From contig NZ_BAFM01000006.1 in assembly GCF_000334895.1 (NCBI RefSeq), positions 62,001-126,000 of the forward strand: DNA of 64,000 nucleotides. The letters are read 5' to 3'. Below, one piece after another: positions 38,793 through 62,007 of the stretch (positions are counted from its first letter, which is position 1; the number at the start of each line of letters is the position of its first letter). A program made the translations under genes and the position numbers. Source of the DNA: Halococcus agarilyticus (GTDB lineage Archaea; Halobacteriota; Halobacteria; Halobacteriales; Halococcaceae). The notes beneath the pieces were generated by a model. It saw only the letters and a list, made by a program, of their open reading frames with translations. It searched no databases and was not told where the DNA came from.

Positions 38793-38969
38793 TCTTCATC
38801 AGCAGCTACTCGTGATTCTTGTGCGAATCCAGACACTCATCTGCTGATTGCAATCGACGATCCAAAACTCCTGTTTGTCTCACCGATCTCGTAGTAGATG
38901 GAGAATTGGGAAGGTATGCTCACACTTCCAAAAGTAATTTTAAGTCAGATGCGGTTTCGATATATACAC

Positions 38970-39794
38970 ATGGACGAACGTTGCGCTGCAATGGAATGCC
39001 TCTGCAACTCACCGCAACGGCTTCGGATTCTCGACGTCCTCGATGACACACAGATGGACGTTCGTGATTTGATGGAGGCATTGAACAGTCCACGTTCCAC
39101 CGTCCAGCGTAACCTTACAGTACTGGAAGAACGGGACTGGATCGAAGACAGATGTTCTGGATACACGACAACCACGATTGGAAGACTTCTCCGTGAGGAA
39201 TTCGTGTCGATGAGTGAGACCACCGATACGATCAAACGCATGGCACCGTTTTTCGAAGTAGTAAATACGCCGCCGAAGATCGATATTAGCCAATTGTCTG
39301 ACGCGCTCGTGATGACTCCTGATTCGGGTCAGCCGATGTCCCTGATGAATCGGTTGTTCAACAGCTTTGGAGGAGTTGATTGTGTCCGAGGGTTCCTGCC
39401 AGTCGTCTCCTCGTTATCGATCGAACTCTCTCGCCGCGTGGGTACGGACGATGGAAGTGTACCTGAGTACGAATACGTTCTCTCATCGGCTGCATTCGAC
39501 ACACTCCGTCAGCAGTATGACAGCGATAGTGCTACTGAGACTGAGATAGATCCGCCACCTCACATCGATATTCGGGTATACGAAGGTGATCTTCCTCATG
39601 GACTGTTCGTCTCAGACGAGCAACTCGCGCTCGTGGGCTACAATGAAGTCGGCCGAATACAAGCAGTGGTCGAGTCAACCAATACGGCGGCCATCAAGTG
39701 GGGTGGGAAAACGTATGGGACCTACAGAGATCAATCAACACAGCCGCACGAGACGGATACTCCGATCGGAGCATCCGATACAGAATCAGACTAG
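38970..39794 (+). CDS. Winged HTH transcription regulator at island edge
   Basis: The product is about 274 residues. An N-terminal winged helix contains NSPQRLRILDVLDDTQMDVR and RSTVQRNLTVLEERDWIEDR, with the rest forming a ligand-type domain (PPHIDIRVYEGDLPHGLFVS, LALVGYNEVGRIQAVVESTN) of the DUF1724/GvpE-like haloarchaeal regulator kind. The ATG at 38970 was chosen because TTTTAA at 38938-38943 is the right distance for a leaderless start; longer forms from 38898 or 38949 are possible. As the first gene of the island it may control the precursor genes; this is inferred from place. Confidence 0.75.
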   Translation: MDERCAAMECLCNSPQRLRILDVLDDTQMDVRDLMEALNSPRSTVQRNLTVLEERDWIEDRCSGYTTTTIGRLLREEFVSMSETTDTIKRMAPFFEVVNTPPKIDISQLSDALVMTPDSGQPMSLMNRLFNSFGGVDCVRGFLPVVSSLSIELSRRVGTDDGSVPEYEYVLSSAAFDTLRQQYDSDSATETEIDPPPHIDIRVYEGDLPHGLFVSDEQLALVGYNEVGRIQAVVESTNTAAIKWGGKTYGTYRDQSTQPHETDTPIGASDTESD

Positions 39795-39804
39795 TTCTGC
39801 TTGT

Positions 39805-40656
39805 TTATGTGGTTGCTTGAGCGGACTGATTCGGTTGTTCTTGCACGCCGTCCGTGTCGGCATCGTCCCATTCCATTTCGAACAGGCGAGAGTCACAGTC
39901 CTGACAGGCTGAGGCGATCACATCATACGACCGACAACACGATTCGACGACCTCTTGTTCAACCTGAACGGAGCCGTCGCAGTCAGGGCACTGCTCGATG
40001 AAGATACGGAGGCTCATCAGCACACGCGCGATTTCGGCAGGAGCGAAGTCCGACCAATTAGTGGTGCGTTCGCTGAGTTCGGTCGTAGCGGCACTGTCTG
40101 CGATAGCGGCGGCCTGTGAACTCCACTGGCCGATGGTAGCATCGTCAGTGTAGGCGACAAACGCCTCGCCGTGTCGGTCGATCGTGATTCGGTCGTCTTC
40201 GGACGAGATATCGAGCGCGTCCGCAAGGCGGTCTTCGGCATGGTCGTGCGCGCGGGCGTCGTGAATGCGCTCGCGCCATGCCTGCTGAAAGTCGGATGTG
40301 AGGCAGAGGTCGGTGCCTTCCCGGCACGGTTCGACCGCGCCGGCGTTGAGGAGCACCCGTTCGGGATCGATCTCGACGGTCTCGTCGGTCTTCGGCGTCG
40401 TGGTGTCCTTGTCGAACCATCGAAGGACACGCTCGGGGAAGTAGCGCTTAGTGAGGGTTGGAGTGCCGGGAACGAGATATCCGCGGAGATAGATGGCCCC
40501 AAGCGAGAGCGAGAACACACCGGCTCCGAGGACGGTAGACGTAAGCGCGGCGAATGCGCTCGCGCCAGCAGCGATGGCGACGTTAACAACAGTGCAGGGT
40601 GTACAGCGGTTTTTGCCGGTGTATTCGGGTCGACGAAGTCGGTCGATAAATGACAT
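39805..40656 (-). CDS. Membrane protein with Cys-rich tail, divergent from precursor 1
   Basis: The product is 283 residues. The N-terminus has a CTPC motif (residues 18-21) followed by two hydrophobic segments, VVNVAIAAGASAFAALTSTV and VFSLSLGAIYLRGYLVPG. A soluble part follows with CREGTDLCLTSDFQQAWRER, and the C-terminus has zinc-ribbon-like CPDCDG, ESCCRSYD and ACQDCDSR. It shares a 170-base divergent promoter region with the Cys-rich precursor at 40828. A role in maturation, immunity or regulation of that peptide is plausible from position, but no family function is known to me. Confidence 0.65.
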   Translation of the reverse strand: MSFIDRLRRPEYTGKNRCTPCTVVNVAIAAGASAFAALTSTVLGAGVFSLSLGAIYLRGYLVPGTPTLTKRYFPERVLRWFDKDTTTPKTDETVEIDPERVLLNAGAVEPCREGTDLCLTSDFQQAWRERIHDARAHDHAEDRLADALDISSEDDRITIDRHGEAFVAYTDDATIGQWSSQAAAIADSAATTELSERTTNWSDFAPAEIARVLMSLRIFIEQCPDCDGSVQVEQEVVESCCRSYDVIASACQDCDSRLFEMEWDDADTDGVQEQPNQSAQATT

Positions 40657-40827: not shown

Positions 40828-41523
40828 ATGTTCGACGACAACAACGCAGATGAACTATCCGAACCGGATGGAAACACCAACCCGATCAACCGACGCCGCT
40901 TCGTCAAGTCACTCGGTGTGGCGGGCGGCGCAACTGTCGGACTAACGGGCGTGGGCGCAGCCAAAGCACGTTCGGACGAAGGGGAGAACAACAGTCCGAG
41001 TATCGAAATACTATCGGTCGATGTCAAAACTGCACAGGAGACACTTAACGAGCGTGCCGAACGCTTGTTGGAAGCACTCGCAGCTGATGGGTATATTCCC
41101 AAGGCCTCTGCAAGTGCATTTCCTGCGTATACACTGTCTTCTGACAAACCGGGTGGTATCGGACGTCATCGTACGGAAGGGACTGGTCGTGTCGAAATAG
41201 ATTTCGAGATACAACTCGATCAGGGCCGACTGGCAGTCACTCTTCCAGAGCAGGGTGAGCCTACTGGTATGTTCAAACCAACGAGCGAGGATTCATGGAT
41301 TCTGTACACTCCAAGTAATAACTACGAAGGAGAAAAACACGCGTCTACATCGTCAAACGTATCGATGAAGGAAATTTCTGTTGTCGGTTCTGATGCCGGG
41401 ACCTATGCCTGTGGTGGTTGCATCTGTACAGCGGCACCGCTCTGTGCGTTCCAGTTCAACAAACTAGTCTGCGAGCCGTTCATTAATGGATCGTGTAGAT
41501 CGTTCTCCGAGTGCAATTGCTAA
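40828..41523 (+). CDS. Tat-exported precursor with eight-cysteine C-terminal peptide (halocin-like)
   Basis: The product is 231 residues. A Tat signal, INRRRFVKSLGVAGGATVGL (20-39), ends near AKARSD. A mid-region of about 140 acidic residues follows. The last 40 residues are Cys-rich: Cys at 195, 198, 200, 206, 215, 223, 229 and 231, within GTYACGGCICTAAPLC and CRSFSECNC. The overall plan (Tat signal, soluble pro-part, Cys-rich tail) is that of the halocin C8 precursor, but the tail differs in cysteine number and spacing, so it looks like a separate peptide class. The start at 40828 is set by promoter conservation; an in-frame GTG at 40795 is the alternative. Confidence 0.75.
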   Translation: MFDDNNADELSEPDGNTNPINRRRFVKSLGVAGGATVGLTGVGAAKARSDEGENNSPSIEILSVDVKTAQETLNERAERLLEALAADGYIPKASASAFPAYTLSSDKPGGIGRHRTEGTGRVEIDFEIQLDQGRLAVTLPEQGEPTGMFKPTSEDSWILYTPSNNYEGEKHASTSSNVSMKEISVVGSDAGTYACGGCICTAAPLCAFQFNKLVCEPFINGSCRSFSECNC

Positions 41524-42334: not shown

Positions 42335-42655
42335 TCATGTGCGGGTGAATCCATAAAGGATGAGGACGAGCCCAAGGACGTTGAGGAGTTGGGCGATGAG
42401 AATACTCTGTGACGGTGCGAGCGCGTTCGTCACCCGAACCCAACTTTCCACTACGAACGGGATAGTTGTCAAGAGGAGGATGCCAGCGGTGAGGAACAGC
42501 AGCGTTCGGTTCCTGTTCCGCACGTATCCACGGTAGCCCTGATACGCGACGAAGATGCCGACACCCGCAAGGAGTCCGGCGATGACGAGTGGCACTGTCT
42601 CCGAGTAGGCGGCGAGAGATACTGGGACGGGACCCGCCACGTGCTCACTCATCAT
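42335..42655 (-). CDS. Three-helix membrane protein, DUF7521-like (106 aa)
   Basis: The product is 106 residues with three hydrophobic segments: VPLVIAGLLAGVGIFVAYQG, LLFLTAGILLLTTIPFVVES and LIAQLLNVLGLVLILYGFTR. It is related in layout and in the phrases GILLLTTIP and LNVLGLVLILYG to the next gene upstream (GILLLSGIP, IRLFGLVTILVSIY). I place both in the haloarchaeal DUF7521 type, which is commonly next to a winged-helix gene, as here. Function is unknown. A second Met is four bases inside the start. Confidence 0.65.
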   Translation of the reverse strand: MMSEHVAGPVPVSLAAYSETVPLVIAGLLAGVGIFVAYQGYRGYVRNRNRTLLFLTAGILLLTTIPFVVESWVRVTNALAPSQSILIAQLLNVLGLVLILYGFTRT

Positions 42656-42732: not shown

Positions 42733-43044
42733 TTACTGGTCATAGATGCTCACGAGGATGGTCACGAGTCCGAAAAGCCGGATGAGAGTGACCGTCGTCT
42801 CCACGATCCAATCCGGTATCGTTGTAAACGTCGTGAGAACCACGTTGATGCTGGTGGGTATCCCACTCAAGAGCAGAATGCCTACCACGAGCAAGACGAT
42901 CCCCCAGTCGTGTGACTCACGATAGCTCCGCATTCCCTTGAGCCCAATAACGAACGACAGGATGACCGACACGAGCAGACTGCTGAACAACACTAACAGG
43001 ACCCCCGTGCTGCCCGTCCCTGTTTGGAGAGGCAGTACCATCAT
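42733..43044 (-). CDS. Three-helix membrane protein, DUF7521-like (103 aa)
   Basis: The product is 103 residues with three hydrophobic segments: GVLLVLFSSLLVSVILSFVI, WGIVLLVVGILLLSGIPTSI and LIRLFGLVTILVSIYD. It is a paralogue of the gene at 42335. It starts seven bases after the stop of the winged-helix gene at 43052, so the HTH and two membrane genes form one unit. No function is known. Confidence 0.65.
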   Translation of the reverse strand: MMVLPLQTGTGSTGVLLVLFSSLLVSVILSFVIGLKGMRSYRESHDWGIVLLVVGILLLSGIPTSINVVLTTFTTIPDWIVETTVTLIRLFGLVTILVSIYDQ

Positions 43045-43051
43045 GATGCAG

Positions 43052-43399
43052 TCACTTGAGCTCTTCGACGAGGTCGGAGAAGCGGTCGGCCGCTTCCCGT
43101 TCCGTCCGGGTTATCTCGACACTATACGTTCCGTCCTCGAGGTCGATGGACACCTGTTCGAGACGGGCTTCGTACGACTTGTAGTGGTGGCCATCGGGGT
43201 CGAGTTGCTGTTGCTCTCTGAGGAGATCGTGTTCCTGTAAGCGCTCGATGCGGCGATAGACTGTCGGAAGCGATGCATCGCAGCGGTCGCTCAGCATCTT
43301 TGCCGACATCGGTTCGATACTCGTCTTGGCGAGAATCGCGCGTGCATACGGATCGTCGAGCAGCTCGGCGACCTCACTCAGATCACCGTCCGTGGTCAT
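43052..43399 (-). CDS. ArsR-like winged HTH regulator (115 aa)
   Basis: The product is 115 residues. It has LLDDPYARAILAKTSIEPMS, then AKMLSDRCDASLPTVYRRIE and RLQEHDLLREQQQLDPDGHH, a normal ArsR/winged-helix order with recognition helix SLPTVYRRI. The C-terminus forms a beta-strand pair EQVSIDLEDGTYSVEI and a helix. It leads the unit with two DUF7521-like membrane genes and diverges from the ABC transporter, so it may regulate either or both. The closeness to the halocin genes suggests an immunity or signalling circuit; this is inference. Confidence 0.78.
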   Translation of the reverse strand: MTTDGDLSEVAELLDDPYARAILAKTSIEPMSAKMLSDRCDASLPTVYRRIERLQEHDLLREQQQLDPDGHHYKSYEARLEQVSIDLEDGTYSVEITRTEREAADRFSDLVEELK

Positions 43400-43748
43400 C
43401 GGATGATTCCCGGTCTCTCGACAAATTTCCCGCGGTCAGTCCTCGTCGTGGAAGCACGTCGCTTCGGAATGAAGACGGTCGTTTATAAAATCAGGTGGGA
43501 GACTTTCAGACTCGGAAACCGTGGTTTTCGTCTTATCATAGCAGGAGTCATAGTGTTCGAGTGGAGAATGAACGTGTTCAATAACTTCTCGGTCAGGAGC
43601 CACCTGCAACACTCCTCTCGGATTCCCGACTGTTCCGGTACGGTGGCCCGCTCCCTCAGGAATCAGGACGAATACTACTTGCACGCAGGAGTTATGATGA
43701 ACGGAACGTCGACAGATAGTCGCTGGATCGGGGTTTTGGGTGAGTGAC
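43400..43748. other. Divergent intergenic region, no gene seen
   Basis: This 349-base region lies between the winged-helix unit and the ABC transporter. Open frames on both strands exist but resemble nothing and overlap the promoters of both units. It has TTTATAAAATCA at about 43481, a possible TATA element for one of the two directions. Confidence 0.4.
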
Positions 43749-44669
43749 ATGGCGGCACTCGAAACACGTGGCCTCACCAAACGATTCGGAGATACTGTCG
43801 CCGTGCATAACCTTGATCTCACTGTCGATGAGGGTGAGGTATTCGGCTTTCTCGGCCCGAACGGCGCAGGCAAATCGACGACGATCAATATGATTCTGGA
43901 TTTCATGCGGCCAACTGCTGGCAGCGTCGCCGTCCTCGGAACTAACCCTCGACAGAACCCTCGCGCCGTCCGCGAGCGTATCGGTGTTCTTCCGGAGGGT
44001 TACGACCTGTACGACCGGCTTACCGCGCGCAAGCACGTCACTTTCGCCATCGAGATGAAACGAAGCAATGACGATCCAGAGACGATCCTCGAACGCATTG
44101 GTCTGGCTGCTGACGCTGACAAGGCCATCGGTGGCTACTCCAAGGGGATGCGTCAGCGGCTCGCGCTCGGGATGGCACTCGTCGGCGATCCCGACCTACT
44201 GGTGCTTGACGAACCCTCATCGGGACTGGACCCGAACGGTGCCCGCGCGATGCGTGAAATCATCAGTACCGAGCAAGACCGCGGAGCGACGGTGTTCTTT
44301 TCGAGCCACATCATGGAGCAGGTCGAGCCAGTCTGTGATCGTGTCGGCATCATGCGTGACGGAGAACTTGTCGCGGTCGATACCGTTGATGGCCTCCGCG
44401 AGTCAGCTGGCGCAGAGTCCACTCTGGTTCTTTCGGTCGATACCGTTCCACAACAACACGCGCTCTTCGACATTCCCGGCGTAACAGACGTTCAGTGTAT
44501 CGACTCGACTATCCATGTCAACTGTTCAGATTCGAGCGTCAAAGCTGATATCATTACTGCAGTCGAGGCGACCGGTACGTCCGTCCAAGACATTACCATC
44601 CAGGACCGCTCGCTTGATGACCTCTTCGCCGAGTACACTACTGAGAATGCTGCGGAGGGACAAGCATGA
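43749..44669 (+). CDS. ABC transporter ATP-binding protein (ABC-2 export type)
   Basis: The product is 306 residues: Walker A GPNGAGKST (36-44), signature YSKGMRQRLALGMALV, a shortened LSGGQ variant usual in exporters, Walker B LLVLDEPSSGLDPNGARAM and switch His in VFFSSHIMEQVEPVCDRVGI. The C-terminal extension (VLSVDTVPQQHALFDIPGV) matches NosF/CcmA-type exporters. The next gene is its permease, overlapping by four bases. In a halocin locus it is a candidate for peptide export or self-immunity; other substrates are possible. A GTG nine bases upstream is an alternative start. Confidence 0.88.
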   Translation: MAALETRGLTKRFGDTVAVHNLDLTVDEGEVFGFLGPNGAGKSTTINMILDFMRPTAGSVAVLGTNPRQNPRAVRERIGVLPEGYDLYDRLTARKHVTFAIEMKRSNDDPETILERIGLAADADKAIGGYSKGMRQRLALGMALVGDPDLLVLDEPSSGLDPNGARAMREIISTEQDRGATVFFSSHIMEQVEPVCDRVGIMRDGELVAVDTVDGLRESAGAESTLVLSVDTVPQQHALFDIPGVTDVQCIDSTIHVNCSDSSVKADIITAVEATGTSVQDITIQDRSLDDLFAEYTTENAAEGQA

Positions 44670-45493
44670 AGACGAATGCGGGCACGATTGCGACGAAAGA
44701 AATCGCTGATGCTACCCGGTCACGGCTTGTGTGGTTTCTAGTAGTCGCATTCGTCGTCGTGACGATCCCACAACTCCTTTCGTTTCGAGCACTAAACCCG
44801 ACGACTGCGCAGGCGTCCAGGAGCATTGCCATTTTTCTCAAACCGTTTATTCCATTGGTGGGGCTGCTGGTTGGCTACAAGGCGATCGTCGGTGAACGCG
44901 ACTCCGGGAGTCTCCGAATCTTGCTCGGGCTGCCGGGCACTCGCCGTGACATCGTCCTTGGAAAGATACTCGGTCGTTCCGCAGTTTTTCTCATTGCAGC
45001 ACTCTCTGGTTTTATCGCTATGGCCGTGGTGATTCGTGTCGTCTATGGCGGCATCGACGTTGCGGTTTTCGTCGGTACCGTGGCGTTCATGCTGCTGTAT
45101 GGGCTATCGTGGGTTGGCATCGCGGTTGGACTCTCGGCGGCTGTAGCTACCCGATTCAGAGCGATGGCTGGCGCGGTGGGACTGTACTCCCTGTGCAACA
45201 TGTTCTGGAACTCGCTCGTTCTTCCGATTACTACGTTTCTGTTCACCGGTAGTGCGTCAACGGACCACCTCAAGCCGGTCAAAATCGCTGCTGGGCCAGA
45301 GTGGTACATCTATTTCCAGCGATTGAATCCAACGAAGGCCTTCGAAGGCAGCTCTTTCGCCGTCTCACAGCTAGTCAGGTCGTCGACGTCCTTGACAGGC
45401 GTTGACTTGTTCGGGGTCGGCGTACTGGCAGCATGGTTCGTTCTTCCAGTACTGATCGGATACTGGCGATTCAATCGCGTTGATTTGGGGTGA
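44666..45493 (+). CDS. ABC-2 type permease
   Basis: The product is 275 residues with six hydrophobic segments, among them VWFLVVAFVVVTIPQLLSF, FLIAALSGFIAMAVVIRVVY and GVLAAWFVLPVLIGYWRF. The loop YKAIVGERDSGSLRILLGLP is the ABC-2/NosY-type signature that contacts the ATPase. It overlaps the ATPase stop and the next gene start (ATGA and GTGA contexts), so three genes are translationally linked. Export of a peptide or lipid is likely; the substrate is not determined. Confidence 0.85.
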   Translation: MKTNAGTIATKEIADATRSRLVWFLVVAFVVVTIPQLLSFRALNPTTAQASRSIAIFLKPFIPLVGLLVGYKAIVGERDSGSLRILLGLPGTRRDIVLGKILGRSAVFLIAALSGFIAMAVVIRVVYGGIDVAVFVGTVAFMLLYGLSWVGIAVGLSAAVATRFRAMAGAVGLYSLCNMFWNSLVLPITTFLFTGSASTDHLKPVKIAAGPEWYIYFQRLNPTKAFEGSSFAVSQLVRSSTSLTGVDLFGVGVLAAWFVLPVLIGYWRFNRVDLG

Positions 45494-45501
45494 TTCGATC
45501 A

Positions 45502-45891
45502 ATGAGTATATTGAAGATCAACGGAGAGGGCCCCTATTCTACGTCCACTCGCCGCACCGTTCTCCGTGGAATCGGAGCAACCGCTACAGGATTGTTCGCA
45601 GGGTGCGCTGCCCTCCCGGCCCTCGGCTCTGACGTGAAAGTTGTTGAATGGGATCGCAAGGACGATCTCGCTGGCGAGACCACGTTCGCCGTCGTGGTTA
45701 AAAACCGAGGTTCGAAGACATCGATCACCATCACGATCAAACTTCACCCAGAATCCATGGGAGGTGGGAAGACGCTGACTCAAAAGAGTAAGACTGTCAC
45801 GCTGTCGGGTGGCGAGAAGCGCACGGTTCGGATGACGATGCTGGTTCCTGACGCTACTGAATCTTGGATCGTTCATACTCGTAGCATGTAA
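45502..45891 (+). CDS. Tat lipoprotein of the ABC transporter operon (129 aa)
   Basis: The product is 129 residues. A twin-Arg signal STRRTVLRGIGATATGLFAG leads to lipobox Cys35, so it is folded, Tat-exported and lipid-anchored outside. The mature part is small and beta-rich (FAVVVKNRGSKTSITITIKL, KTVTLSGGEKRTVRMTMLVP), like an immunoglobulin-type domain. It follows the permease with overlap if the GTG at 45490 is used. It might be an immunity lipoprotein or a transporter accessory. No named family is recognised. Confidence 0.7.
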   Translation: MSILKINGEGPYSTSTRRTVLRGIGATATGLFAGCAALPALGSDVKVVEWDRKDDLAGETTFAVVVKNRGSKTSITITIKLHPESMGGGKTLTQKSKTVTLSGGEKRTVRMTMLVPDATESWIVHTRSM

Positions 45892-46451: not shown

Positions 46452-47207
46452 ATGTCGAAGAAACCTCGCGCTGATGAGACCGACAGTACAGATGTTCTGA
46501 ACAGGCGCAAAGTCATTCGTATGATGGGAACCGGTGCCGTTGGTGTTGCTGGTCTCGGTACTGTGTCGGGTGCTTCTCGTCGTTCGGACGGCGATGCCGG
46601 TGTCGAGTCGCTAAGCGGGAACGGAAAGCGAGAAGCAGTTGCCATTGCGAGAGATACACCTGAATTCGAACTGCTACGTAACGAACTCGAAGAGGAGTAC
46701 AGCTACAGACTCGATCAATCAAAAACACAGGTGTTCGAAGGTGACGATGACGACGGAAATCCATATCACGTCGTCTCGTTTCACCCCGTGTCAACCGGCG
46801 TCCCAGAAGACAGCAGCGAAGTAGACCTTGCTATTACACTGAAGCACAGCTCGTTCTACGATGCTGGAGCAACTATCACTGAGTACGAGGGTGAATCAGG
46901 CACGGTCACATTGCTTACAACTAGCGGGGGCGTCGTCGAGACCGAATCTGCTGCTCTTGGTCGATCTGTATCCAGTGACGCTGTGACTGTCCAGAGTAGC
47001 TGTAGTATTTGTCGTGATGTGTCTACTGTAATCTGCAACAGGGGATGTAGTCTCGGCGGGGCCACCCTCTGCGCTATTGCTGGCTTCGGAACGATCGGAA
47101 GCATTGCATGTGCTGCTGTAGTCAATGAACTTTGCCGGAGGTATGGAGGCAACATACGACAAACATGCAGACGATCCAATCTCTGTAACCTGTCTGGAAT
47201 TTGTTAG
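46452..47207 (+). CDS. Halocin C8-like precursor (Tat-exported, ten-cysteine tail)
   Basis: The product is 251 residues. A Tat signal NRRKVIRMMGTGAVGVAGLG (17-36) ends near VSGASRR. The pro-part (about 40-180) is acidic. The tail has exactly ten cysteines at 184, 187, 195, 199, 207, 220, 228, 239, 245 and 251, embedded in glycine- and alanine-rich hydrophobic sequence (CSLGGATLCAIAGFGTIGSI). The halocin C8 tail has ten cysteines with closely similar order and ends in C as here. Halocin C8 is released from the C-terminus and kills related archaea, and its pro-part acts as immunity; the same is expected here but unproven. Confidence 0.88.
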   Translation: MSKKPRADETDSTDVLNRRKVIRMMGTGAVGVAGLGTVSGASRRSDGDAGVESLSGNGKREAVAIARDTPEFELLRNELEEEYSYRLDQSKTQVFEGDDDDGNPYHVVSFHPVSTGVPEDSSEVDLAITLKHSSFYDAGATITEYEGESGTVTLLTTSGGVVETESAALGRSVSSDAVTVQSSCSICRDVSTVICNRGCSLGGATLCAIAGFGTIGSIACAAVVNELCRRYGGNIRQTCRRSNLCNLSGIC

Positions 47208-48823: not shown

Positions 48824-49630
48824 TCAGCCGCGTCCGGTCCACCTGAGCAACAGAAGCGTGCCCTCGAACAGCCCGATCATCGTCGCGCCCACGATGACGG
48901 GGGCCATCCCGGTCGGGTCTGGACTGAAGAGGAACGCGATCCCGGCGAACCCACCCCAGAAGTAGAGCCGTCGGCTCGTGAGCCACGCTCTCGTCGTGAT
49001 CCCCATCATGATCGCGAGCATCACGAACAGCGGGATCTGGAAGACCAGCGCGAAAAAGCCCATCAGCAGCGTCATCAGCCCGAAGGTGTCGCCGAGCCCG
49101 AACGCGATCTCCGCGACGGGCCGCGAGTAGCCGAGGAAGTAGTTGAAGATCACGGGCAGCACGAGGAAGAAGGCGAAGGCGACCCCGATCAGCGCGAGCA
49201 CGAGGCTCGTGGGGACCGCCGCGAGGTAGTACCGGCGCTCGTTCTCGTAGAGTCCGGGACGCATGAACCGGTAGGTCTGGTAGACGAAGAGGGGGAGCGC
49301 GACCACGAAGCCCGCGAGCGACGCCGCCTTCAGCCGCGCGAGGATGAGCGAGAGCGGATCGTAGACGTACGGACACGCGGCGCTCGCCTGGTCCGCCGTG
49401 ACCGGGCAGACCGAGGGCGAGCCGGGGAGGAAGGCGTACCAGATGAAGTTGATGAGGTCGTCGGCAAAGGGGAAGACGACACCGCTCACGACGCCCATCG
49501 CCACGAGCACGATCCCGAGACGTTTGACCATCTCCTCGATGTGGTCGGCGAGCGGCATCTCGCTGTCGTCGATCGGCGCGGTGCCGGCGGGCTCGCTGGC
49601 GGTCCCACTCGTTTCCGTCGACTCGGCCAT
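48824..49630 (-). CDS. tatC: Twin-arginine translocase subunit TatC
   Basis: The product is 268 residues with six membrane segments and the TatC signatures MPLADHIEEMVKRLGIV, LPLFVYQTYRFMRPGLYENE and FGLMTLLMGFFALVFQIPLF. A haloarchaeal insertion with two cysteines, PSVCPVTADQASAACPYVYD, lies in the first outer loop. TatC binds twin-arginine signals at the membrane. It converges with cdc6 and diverges from the double TatC gene, a common haloarchaeal order. In haloarchaea most secreted proteins use Tat, including the two precursors in the neighbouring island. Confidence 0.95.
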   Translation of the reverse strand: MAESTETSGTASEPAGTAPIDDSEMPLADHIEEMVKRLGIVLVAMGVVSGVVFPFADDLINFIWYAFLPGSPSVCPVTADQASAACPYVYDPLSLILARLKAASLAGFVVALPLFVYQTYRFMRPGLYENERRYYLAAVPTSLVLALIGVAFAFFLVLPVIFNYFLGYSRPVAEIAFGLGDTFGLMTLLMGFFALVFQIPLFVMLAIMMGITTRAWLTSRRLYFWGGFAGIAFLFSPDPTGMAPVIVGATMIGLFEGTLLLLRWTGRG

Positions 49631-49746
49631 CTGGGTGGCGGTTCGCGGGTGAGCGTTGTAAGCTTTCTTCTCGGCACTCGGCAGGGCGGGAGGCCCGGTA
49701 GACAAGATTGATAACGAGGAGTCGGTTAATCCCACCGAAGCAACGA

Positions 49747-51993
49747 ATGTCGGGAGCCGTCGACGACGACGTTCGCCGGTCAGTCGATCGCGGTCGGGAG
49801 ACGCTCGGGGCGGTGCTGTCGGCCGCACAGACCCATCTCCAGAAGGTCGCGATCGCCTTCCTGATCGGCTTCCTCGGCTCGTTTTACGCCCTCTGGCTCT
49901 ACGTCTGGGAGCGGCTGAAGACCGATCTCTTCGCACAGATCCCGGCCGCCGCCGCCGAGGAGACCTCGGTCATCGGCAAGACCCCATTCGAGGTGCCGCT
50001 GTTGCAGGCGAAGATCGCGCTCGCGGTCGGCGGGATCGTGGCGCTCCCGGTTCTCCTGTACTACTCGCGCGAGGCGCTCCGCGAGCGGGGCTACTGGATC
50101 ACGATCGGCTCGCGCTGGAAGGTGGCCGCCATCGCCCTGGTCGCCGGCCTCCTTTTCCTCGTCGGGGCTTCCTACGGGTACTTCGTGTTCTTCCCGCTGA
50201 TGTTCGCGTTCCTCGCCGAGAACGCGGTCAAGGTCGGGTTTCAACCTACGTACTCCATCACGCTCTGGGCACAGTTCGTCTTCCTGCTCATGCTCTCGTT
50301 CGGGCTCGCGGCCCAGCTCCCGCTCGCGATGACGGGACTCTCGCTCGCCGGGATCGTCCGCTACGAGACCTTCCGCGACAAGTGGAAGTACGCGATCGTC
50401 GCCGCGTTCGCCTTCGGCGCGCTGTTCTCGCCGCCGGACCCCTTCACGCAGGTGCTCTGGGCCGTCCCGATCGTCGGGCTCTACGCGATCAGCGTCGGCC
50501 TCACCAAGGTCGTCGTCACGCTCCAGCGCGGCGGCAGCGCGGTCGACGTTCGCCGGGTACTCCGCGAGCGCTGGCGCGCGATCCTCGCGGTCCCGACGGT
50601 CGTCGCGGGCGCGATCGCCGCCCTGATCGTCGCCGGTTTCGGCGCGTTCTTCAATCAAACTGTCGTGCCGGCGATTCCCTACGTTTCACCGGAGGAGCCG
50701 GTGTTCAAGTACATCGGGCCGATGTTGGGCCTGCCGCGCGAGTTCGCGATCGCGGTCGTCGCGGGCGCGGCCTTCCTCGCCGTCCTCGTCCTCGCCTTTG
50801 CGTACTACGTTTACCGGGCGATCGAGGCCGCCGCCGCGACGAGGGGCCGGGCCGGCGATCCGACCGCGATCGACTTCGAACGCCTCGACGCGACTGGCGT
50901 CCGGGCTGCCCCGCCCGAGGCCTTTCGCGACCTGAGCGAACAGGAGGCGGTCGCTCAGGCCAGCAAGGCGACGAGCGACGGCGAGCCCGAGAAGGCTCGC
51001 GCGATCCTCGACCGCTTCGACGAGGCGGAGGCGGCCGCGGAAGCGGAAGGCGACCAAGCGGCCGCGGCCGACACCGCCCTCGACGACGCCGACCATCCCG
51101 GCGAGCCTGGCTCGGGGGCCGAGACCGACGCGGACGATTCGAACCCGTTCCTGAGCCGCACGACGGGCGTCGTCGACGCGTTCACGACCGAGGAGACCAC
51201 CGAGGAGGACGTCGGCGGGTACTACTACGACATCGCGTTCGTGCTCGACAGCCTCCGATCGCGCGCGTTCTTGCTGGTCGGGCTGTTCATGGCGGTGCTC
51301 GCCGGGACGTTCCTCTGGCTCTACCAGGGTGGGATCGGGCGGCTCCGTGCGGACTTCCTCGCGCGCCTCCCCGCGGGCGTCAGGGCGGAAGATGTCGGGA
51401 TCGTCGCGCTCCACCCGACCGAGGCGCTCGTGTTCGAGATCAAGCTCAGCACGCTGTTCGCGGTGCTCGCGGTCCTGCCGCTCGTGCTCTACTACGCGTG
51501 GCCGGCGCTGCGCGAGCGCGGGATCGCGGCCGGCGACCGACGAGTGTTGATCGTGTGGGCCGGCGCGCTGTTCGTCAGCCTCGTCGGCGGGGTCGTCGTG
51601 GGCTACACCACGATCGCCCCCGCGGTGATCTCGTGGCTCGCCGCCGACGCCATCGGCGCGGGGATGGTGGTGGCCTACCGCATCTCGGCCGCTGGCTGGC
51701 TGGTCTTCTTCACCACCGCCGGCATCGGGCTGCTCGCCCTCATCCCGGTGACGATGGTGCTGTTCCATCGCGGCGGCCTCGTGCCCTATCGGGGGATGCG
51801 AAACCGCTGGCGCGAGGTCACGGTCGGCGTGTTCGCGATCACCGCCTACGTCTCGCCGCGGGGCGTGTTCATGATGTTCATCCTCGGGATCCCGATCATG
51901 CTGTGTTACGGGCTGGGGCTCGGCTTGCTCTGGCTCTACACCGTCGGCGGTCGGCGCACTTGGAGCGAGGAGCCCGGCGAGAGCGCCGACTGA
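49747..51993 (+). CDS. tatC2: Double-domain TatC (TatCt type)
   Basis: The product is 748 residues with two TatC-like units joined by a soluble linker. The first (about 20-390) has FLIGFLGSFYALWLYVWERL and FVFLLMLSFGLAAQLPLAMT. The second (about 500-740) has LVGLFMAVLAGTFLWLYQGG and VFEIKLSTLFAVLAVLPLVL. The acidic linker (about 400-490) contains EGDQAAAADTALDDADHPGE. About 14 membrane segments are expected. Fused TatC is characteristic of haloarchaea (TatCt) and works with TatA. It diverges from the single TatC gene. Confidence 0.93.
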   Translation: MSGAVDDDVRRSVDRGRETLGAVLSAAQTHLQKVAIAFLIGFLGSFYALWLYVWERLKTDLFAQIPAAAAEETSVIGKTPFEVPLLQAKIALAVGGIVALPVLLYYSREALRERGYWITIGSRWKVAAIALVAGLLFLVGASYGYFVFFPLMFAFLAENAVKVGFQPTYSITLWAQFVFLLMLSFGLAAQLPLAMTGLSLAGIVRYETFRDKWKYAIVAAFAFGALFSPPDPFTQVLWAVPIVGLYAISVGLTKVVVTLQRGGSAVDVRRVLRERWRAILAVPTVVAGAIAALIVAGFGAFFNQTVVPAIPYVSPEEPVFKYIGPMLGLPREFAIAVVAGAAFLAVLVLAFAYYVYRAIEAAAATRGRAGDPTAIDFERLDATGVRAAPPEAFRDLSEQEAVAQASKATSDGEPEKARAILDRFDEAEAAAEAEGDQAAAADTALDDADHPGEPGSGAETDADDSNPFLSRTTGVVDAFTTEETTEEDVGGYYYDIAFVLDSLRSRAFLLVGLFMAVLAGTFLWLYQGGIGRLRADFLARLPAGVRAEDVGIVALHPTEALVFEIKLSTLFAVLAVLPLVLYYAWPALRERGIAAGDRRVLIVWAGALFVSLVGGVVVGYTTIAPAVISWLAADAIGAGMVVAYRISAAGWLVFFTTAGIGLLALIPVTMVLFHRGGLVPYRGMRNRWREVTVGVFAITAYVSPRGVFMMFILGIPIMLCYGLGLGLLWLYTVGGRRTWSEEPGESAD

Positions 51994-61818: not shown

Positions 61819-62007
61819 CTACTGCCTCGAGAGCCAGTAGCCAGTCGCCACCATCACCGCCACGAAGAACACGAGGCTCCCGACCAGCGCGAACCCACCC
61901 GCGCCCTCGAGGTTCGGGTACATCAGACCGACGGCCACGATCGCCACGAGAAACAGCACGACCGCAGTGGTAGAGACGGCAGCCTCGACGAACGTCTCCC
62001 GTTCCAT
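61819..62007 (-). CDS. Small two-helix membrane protein (62 aa)
   Basis: The product begins MERETFVEAAVSTTAVVLFL and has two hydrophobic segments, VVLFLVAIVAVGLMYPNL and ALVGSLVFFVAVMVATGYWL, ending in SRQ. It resembles a widespread haloarchaeal family of tiny membrane proteins (DUF7472-like) with no known role. It converges with priL and diverges from the SWIM gene. An upstream ATG at 62013 adds two residues. Confidence 0.7.
   Translation of the reverse strand: MERETFVEAAVSTTAVVLFLVAIVAVGLMYPNLEGAGGFALVGSLVFFVAVMVATGYWLSRQ

Follow-up and report, generated by a model that had tools for sequence, protein, structure and literature searches.

The window, by which we mean the whole stretch analysed here (64,000 nucleotides of Halococcus agarilyticus, positions 62,001 to 126,000 of contig NZ_BAFM01000006.1), contains an island with a GC content of 0.54-0.58, compared with about 0.67 around it. 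The island is bordered by a MutS-domain gene on one side and by a Cdc6-like gene, then two tatC genes, on the other. The two tatC genes (48824-51993) adjoin the island with the Cdc6-like gene between, and so have Tat-dependent products encoded close by; their synteny is kept in the sister species, G044. Inside the island lies the gene of an eight-cysteine precursor, and the locus comprises the following features.

38898-39794, forward strand: HTH regulator (HVO_A0261_N and FilR1_middle domains)
39805-40653, reverse strand: companion membrane protein, hereafter COMP (EYTGxNRCxPCT..N motif, two predicted hydrophobic helices, CPxC..ESCC..CxxC C-terminus)
40828-41523, forward strand: eight-cysteine precursor of 231 residues (open reading frame and translation)
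40828-40968, forward strand: its Tat signal region, residues 1-47 (RRRFVK ... AKA), read from the sequence; TIGR01409 and PF10518 match weakly, below cut-off
40990-41343, forward strand: its shared carrier (pro-)domain, residues 55-172 (AlphaFold2)
41344-41409, forward strand: its linker, the probable processing region (pLDDT mostly below 50, AlphaFold2)
41410-41520, forward strand: its eight-cysteine tail CGGCICTAAPLCAFQFNKLVCEPFINGSCRSFSECNC, the predicted mature peptide
42335-42655, reverse strand: DUF7521 membrane protein
42733-43044, reverse strand: DUF7521-like membrane protein (weak match)
43052-43399, reverse strand: HTH_20 regulator
43740-44669, forward strand: ABC-2 transporter ATPase
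44666-45493, forward strand: ABC-2 permease
45490-45891, forward strand: small protein encoded in the transporter operon, lipoprotein-like
46452-47207, forward strand: halocin C8-domain precursor, the second candidate bacteriocin of the island (TIGR04449, 27.4 bits for a cut-off of 24)

The full-length eight-cysteine precursor is present as a single copy in the genome. Its Tat motif (NRRRFVKS, residues 21-28) and AKA site (residues 45-47) are both N-terminal to the carrier domain, which AlphaFold2 folds into two helices followed by five or six antiparallel strands, with a pLDDT above 90 over most of residues ~58-172; neither the linker nor the tail (pLDDT about 32) is resolved in the model. 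A preliminary description had placed eight cysteines between residues 195 and 231, with a CxxCxC start, wider spacing and a C-x-C end, and the translation bears this out: cysteines are found at 195, 198, 200, 206, 215, 223, 229 and 231, and none elsewhere. All eight are inside the last 37 residues, with the spacing Cx2CxCx5Cx8Cx7Cx5CxC (P = 2e-7 under random placement), and the probability of at least eight cysteines in 37 residues, given the local cysteine frequency of 1.1%, is 6e-9. The predicted peptide has a net charge of 0 and a computed mass of 3.93 kDa with four disulfides, which fits the suggestion of some 40 residues and up to four disulfides. The tail is devoid of His, and the precursor shows no anchor at its C-terminus, whether hydrophobic or PGF/LPXTG-like.

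No Pfam or NCBIfam family matches the precursor above cut-off, and PDB sequence and fold searches gave nothing significant for either the precursor or COMP; a match to SIMPL/DUF541 (E 0.024, below cut-off) was dropped as chance. The preliminary description had named, as the result that would speak against its reading, a whole-protein match to an enzyme or surface protein family with metal-binding rather than peptide function; the Pfam, NCBIfam and PDB fold searches gave no match to any known enzyme, surface protein or metal-binding family. Its statement that the tail is not halocin C8-like also stands, as the halocin_C8_dom model TIGR04449 finds no match to the precursor even at E 0.1, and the tail is not Gly/Ala-rich. 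Scans of genome contigs and viral contigs, and a tblastn search of plasmids, returned no relative of the precursor.

When 391 Halobacteria genomes were searched with the protein and by profile, at least 64 precursors were identified, from roughly 40 of the genomes; they share the Tat leader and the domain of about 120 residues (40 bits or more; the count is a lower bound, scoring having been limited to seven candidates per genome). A sample of 197 genomes of the phylum, searched with a tighter cut-off, yielded no further member. Judged by Pfam and NCBIfam, this is an unnamed haloarchaeal family. A Tat-like RR motif is present in 57 of the 62 full-length members, and the tails are very different from one another, with 4 to 22 cysteines and an even count in 63 of 64. 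Even parity was rejected as sole proof of disulfides and is only supportive, because other cysteine-containing haloarchaeal ORFs, taken as a control, are also mostly even (36/41). The counts divide between 0 and 2 modulo 4, so that cysteine numbers vary by twos rather than by fours, a pattern that suits disulfide pairs better than four-cysteine metal sites. Two members (L182:5521-6183 and L183:5763-6422) have tails with 22 and 20 cysteines in dense CC/CxC patterns, and may represent another class, perhaps a metal-binding one.

The cysteine framework of the window tail is conserved. The spacing Cx2CxCx5Cx8-9Cx7Cx5CxC recurs in two distant relatives (L061 and L068) from other families, and since identity is only 33%, the agreement reflects conservation rather than chance. 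Six further relatives (L066, L067, L069, L071, L075 and L077) have ten cysteines: they keep the eight-cysteine spacing and add exactly one cysteine before the first and one inside the x7 loop, as expected for one extra disulfide.

Some relatives occur as tandem copies whose tails are almost unrelated. When cysteines are excluded, tandem copies at one locus (L191) have domains 63% identical and tails 10% identical, and those at another (L201) have 60% and 19%; on this comparison, both show tail replacement. In many other close pairs, domain and tail diverge equally. Overall, domain identity exceeds tail identity in 338 of 363 pairs, a proportion biased by the choice of pairs on domain identity. 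Tandem precursors with 16 and 12 tail cysteines were found at L191:5772-7241, and others with 10, 8 and 14 at L074:7206-9499.

Replacement is also seen between sister species at a fixed chromosomal locus. In G044, the locus is flanked on both sides by the same genes, and the regulator and COMP (79% identical) are kept. A leader with 48% identity is followed by an unrelated, cysteine-poor protein, and the ABC/C8 part is absent. The effector has been replaced in place. In two other genomes (G255 and G323), the closest relatives of COMP adjoin yet other precursors with cysteine-rich tails, and the flanking genes differ.

Among 59 family loci, an ABC-2 ATPase lies within 2.5 kb of the precursor in 12 (6.8 times the rate further out, P 4e-7) and COMP in 6 (17 times, P 2e-6), the background for both P values being the more distant part of the same loci, which are not fully independent. 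About 40 of the 59 have neither gene nearby, and REG298-type regulators are not enriched near the precursors (0/59). In the closest relative (L061), ABC ATPase, permease, a homologue of the small lipoprotein, precursor and COMP are co-linear on one strand. COMP is directly downstream of the precursor, at 10-75 bp, in L061, L063 and L065, and bacteriocin immunity genes are often located directly downstream. Close homologues of COMP also adjoin halocin C8-type or similar cysteine-tailed precursors (L033, L034, L036, L118 and L130). COMP belongs to a family with no Pfam name or fold match. It is present in 358 of the 391 Halobacteria genomes, usually away from such precursors and with varied neighbours, and must therefore have other roles; we rejected the idea of a gene dedicated to the peptide system, given this near-universal distribution. 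Where it is linked to a precursor, we infer that it acts as an immunity or maturation protein. A second copy of COMP in the host genome (L240:1453-2951) adjoins a Tat-exported halocyanin-like protein.

The halocin C8-type gene at 46452-47207, a genuine one, is located 5 kb downstream of the eight-cysteine precursor gene. Its tail has ten cysteines, with VTVQ just before, and its TIGR04449 score is low. Regulators similar to that at 38898-39794 adjoin many halocin C8-type genes, and in another genus (L131:6506-12934) the ABC-2/HTH/DUF7521 module, including the HTH_20 regulator, recurs near such a gene. Taken together, even cysteine counts, the added cysteine pair, tail swapping and halocin-type neighbours support the reading of the ORF as the precursor of a disulfide-rich C-terminal peptide, and both its secretion and the predicted pairing of its cysteines are well supported.

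How does this precursor compare with known systems? Microhalocin S8 reportedly has four cysteines and is cut out of the interior of its precursor. As a functional class, microhalocins are secreted peptides below 10 kDa that inhibit haloarchaea, and the predicted mass of 3.93 kDa falls within that limit. Microhalocins such as S8 and R1 are peptides of 3.6-3.8 kDa, neutral and not cationic (PMC11509114), a size class and charge close to those predicted for the window peptide. Halocin C8 derives from a Tat-exported protein of 283 residues, ProC8, whose cleavage yields HalI, an immunity peptide, and the halocin itself with 76 residues (PMC11509114). The window precursor resembles it by its Tat export, its N-terminal domain and C-terminal cysteine-rich peptide, the HTH regulator nearby, the linkage to COMP at some loci of both, and a candidate VT/VS-x-Q/A-type motif that precedes the tail. 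A strict cleavage motif, V[ST][TPS][QA], was found in only 4 of 65 and was discarded; a looser [DEGNT][VI][ST][TPIVA]-type motif, defined post hoc, is enriched immediately before the family tails, with 20 of 65 compared with 3.9 in shuffles. Profile alignment (hhalign) covers the leader and first helices only (columns 15-86), and the tail, 37 residues with eight cysteines of another spacing in a family ranging from 4 to 22, differs from the 70-76 or so residues and usually ten cysteines of halocin C8. Because both the model match and the ten-cysteine framework fail, we do not file the precursor in the halocin C8 family, although it probably works in the same way. HalH4/HlyR4 and HmHapP are secreted as precursors activated by an extracellular serine protease; cysteines and disulfides are not mentioned for them, and the activity of HmHapP is in its N-terminus (PMC12893001).

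With moderate confidence, we consider that the locus is best explained by a Tat-exported pro-protein releasing a microhalocin-type antimicrobial peptide. We infer cleavage, disulfide pairing, killing and immunity along the following lines. The pro-protein would be exported folded through the Tat pathway. Its domain of about 120 residues would serve as a pro-region and might also confer cognate immunity, the role that HalI has in pro-halocin C8. An extracellular protease would then cut the disordered linker and free a neutral peptide of ~37 residues and ~3.9 kDa with four disulfides, active against related archaea. Protection of the producer would fall to the linked COMP, to the ABC-2 transporter, to the pro-domain or to more than one of these. 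Three other scenarios are considered: a signal or inhibitor, a metal-binding domain and a surface protein.

The peptide may act not as a toxin but as a signal released by the cell (a pheromone) or as an inhibitor of proteases, roles in which small disulfide-rich scaffolds are known, and the locus does include HTH regulators. However, it has no linked receptor kinase or dedicated sensor, the same partner genes go with halocin C8-type genes, and replacement of the effector at one locus is more typical of conflict systems. We therefore regard this scenario as unlikely.

Less probable again is that the tail is an extracellular metal-binding domain, metallothionein-like or iron-sulfur, exported folded by Tat as cofactor proteins often are. 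CxxCxC and CxC are indeed common metal-site motifs, COMP has zinc-ribbon-like cysteines, and its other copy in the same genome is the neighbour of the halocyanin-like gene. But the tail, in addition to lacking His, matches no metal-protein family; tail counts of 6, 10, 14 and 22 misfit repeated four-cysteine sites; the cysteine numbers vary by twos; tails are radically different between tandem copies; and no metal transporter is linked at the locus.

The least probable scenario is a surface or envelope protein that stays uncleaved and has a disulfide-rich domain at its C-terminus for anchoring or adhesion. It would agree with Tat export, with the rigid domain folded by AlphaFold2 and with a cleavage that is a prediction. 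The missing anchor is against it, and it accounts neither for tail diversification nor for the linkage to transporter and halocin genes.

Returning to the peptide precursor, its family recalls the conotoxin-type precursors of animal venoms, which have a conserved signal and pro-region and a diversified C-terminus built on cysteine frameworks. The same layout is found here, but in archaea, with Tat instead of Sec and a larger folded pro-domain, and no homology is implied. The survey of archaeal toxins and archaeocins by Makarova et al. (mBio, 2019) is said to include predicted candidates. The genes of few halocins are known, and most halocins lack relatives; a carrier domain that can be searched by profile opens access to dozens of candidate archaeal peptides stapled by disulfides, and the family supplies concrete candidate immunity proteins. 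We tentatively propose, as a possibility, a large, unnamed haloarchaeal superfamily of Tat-exported precursors organised like those of venom peptides, in which one pro-domain would carry interchangeable disulfide-framework peptides of 4 to 22 cysteines; halocin C8 may then be only one class of a haloarchaeal arsenal of disulfide peptides that have immunity and export partners in common.
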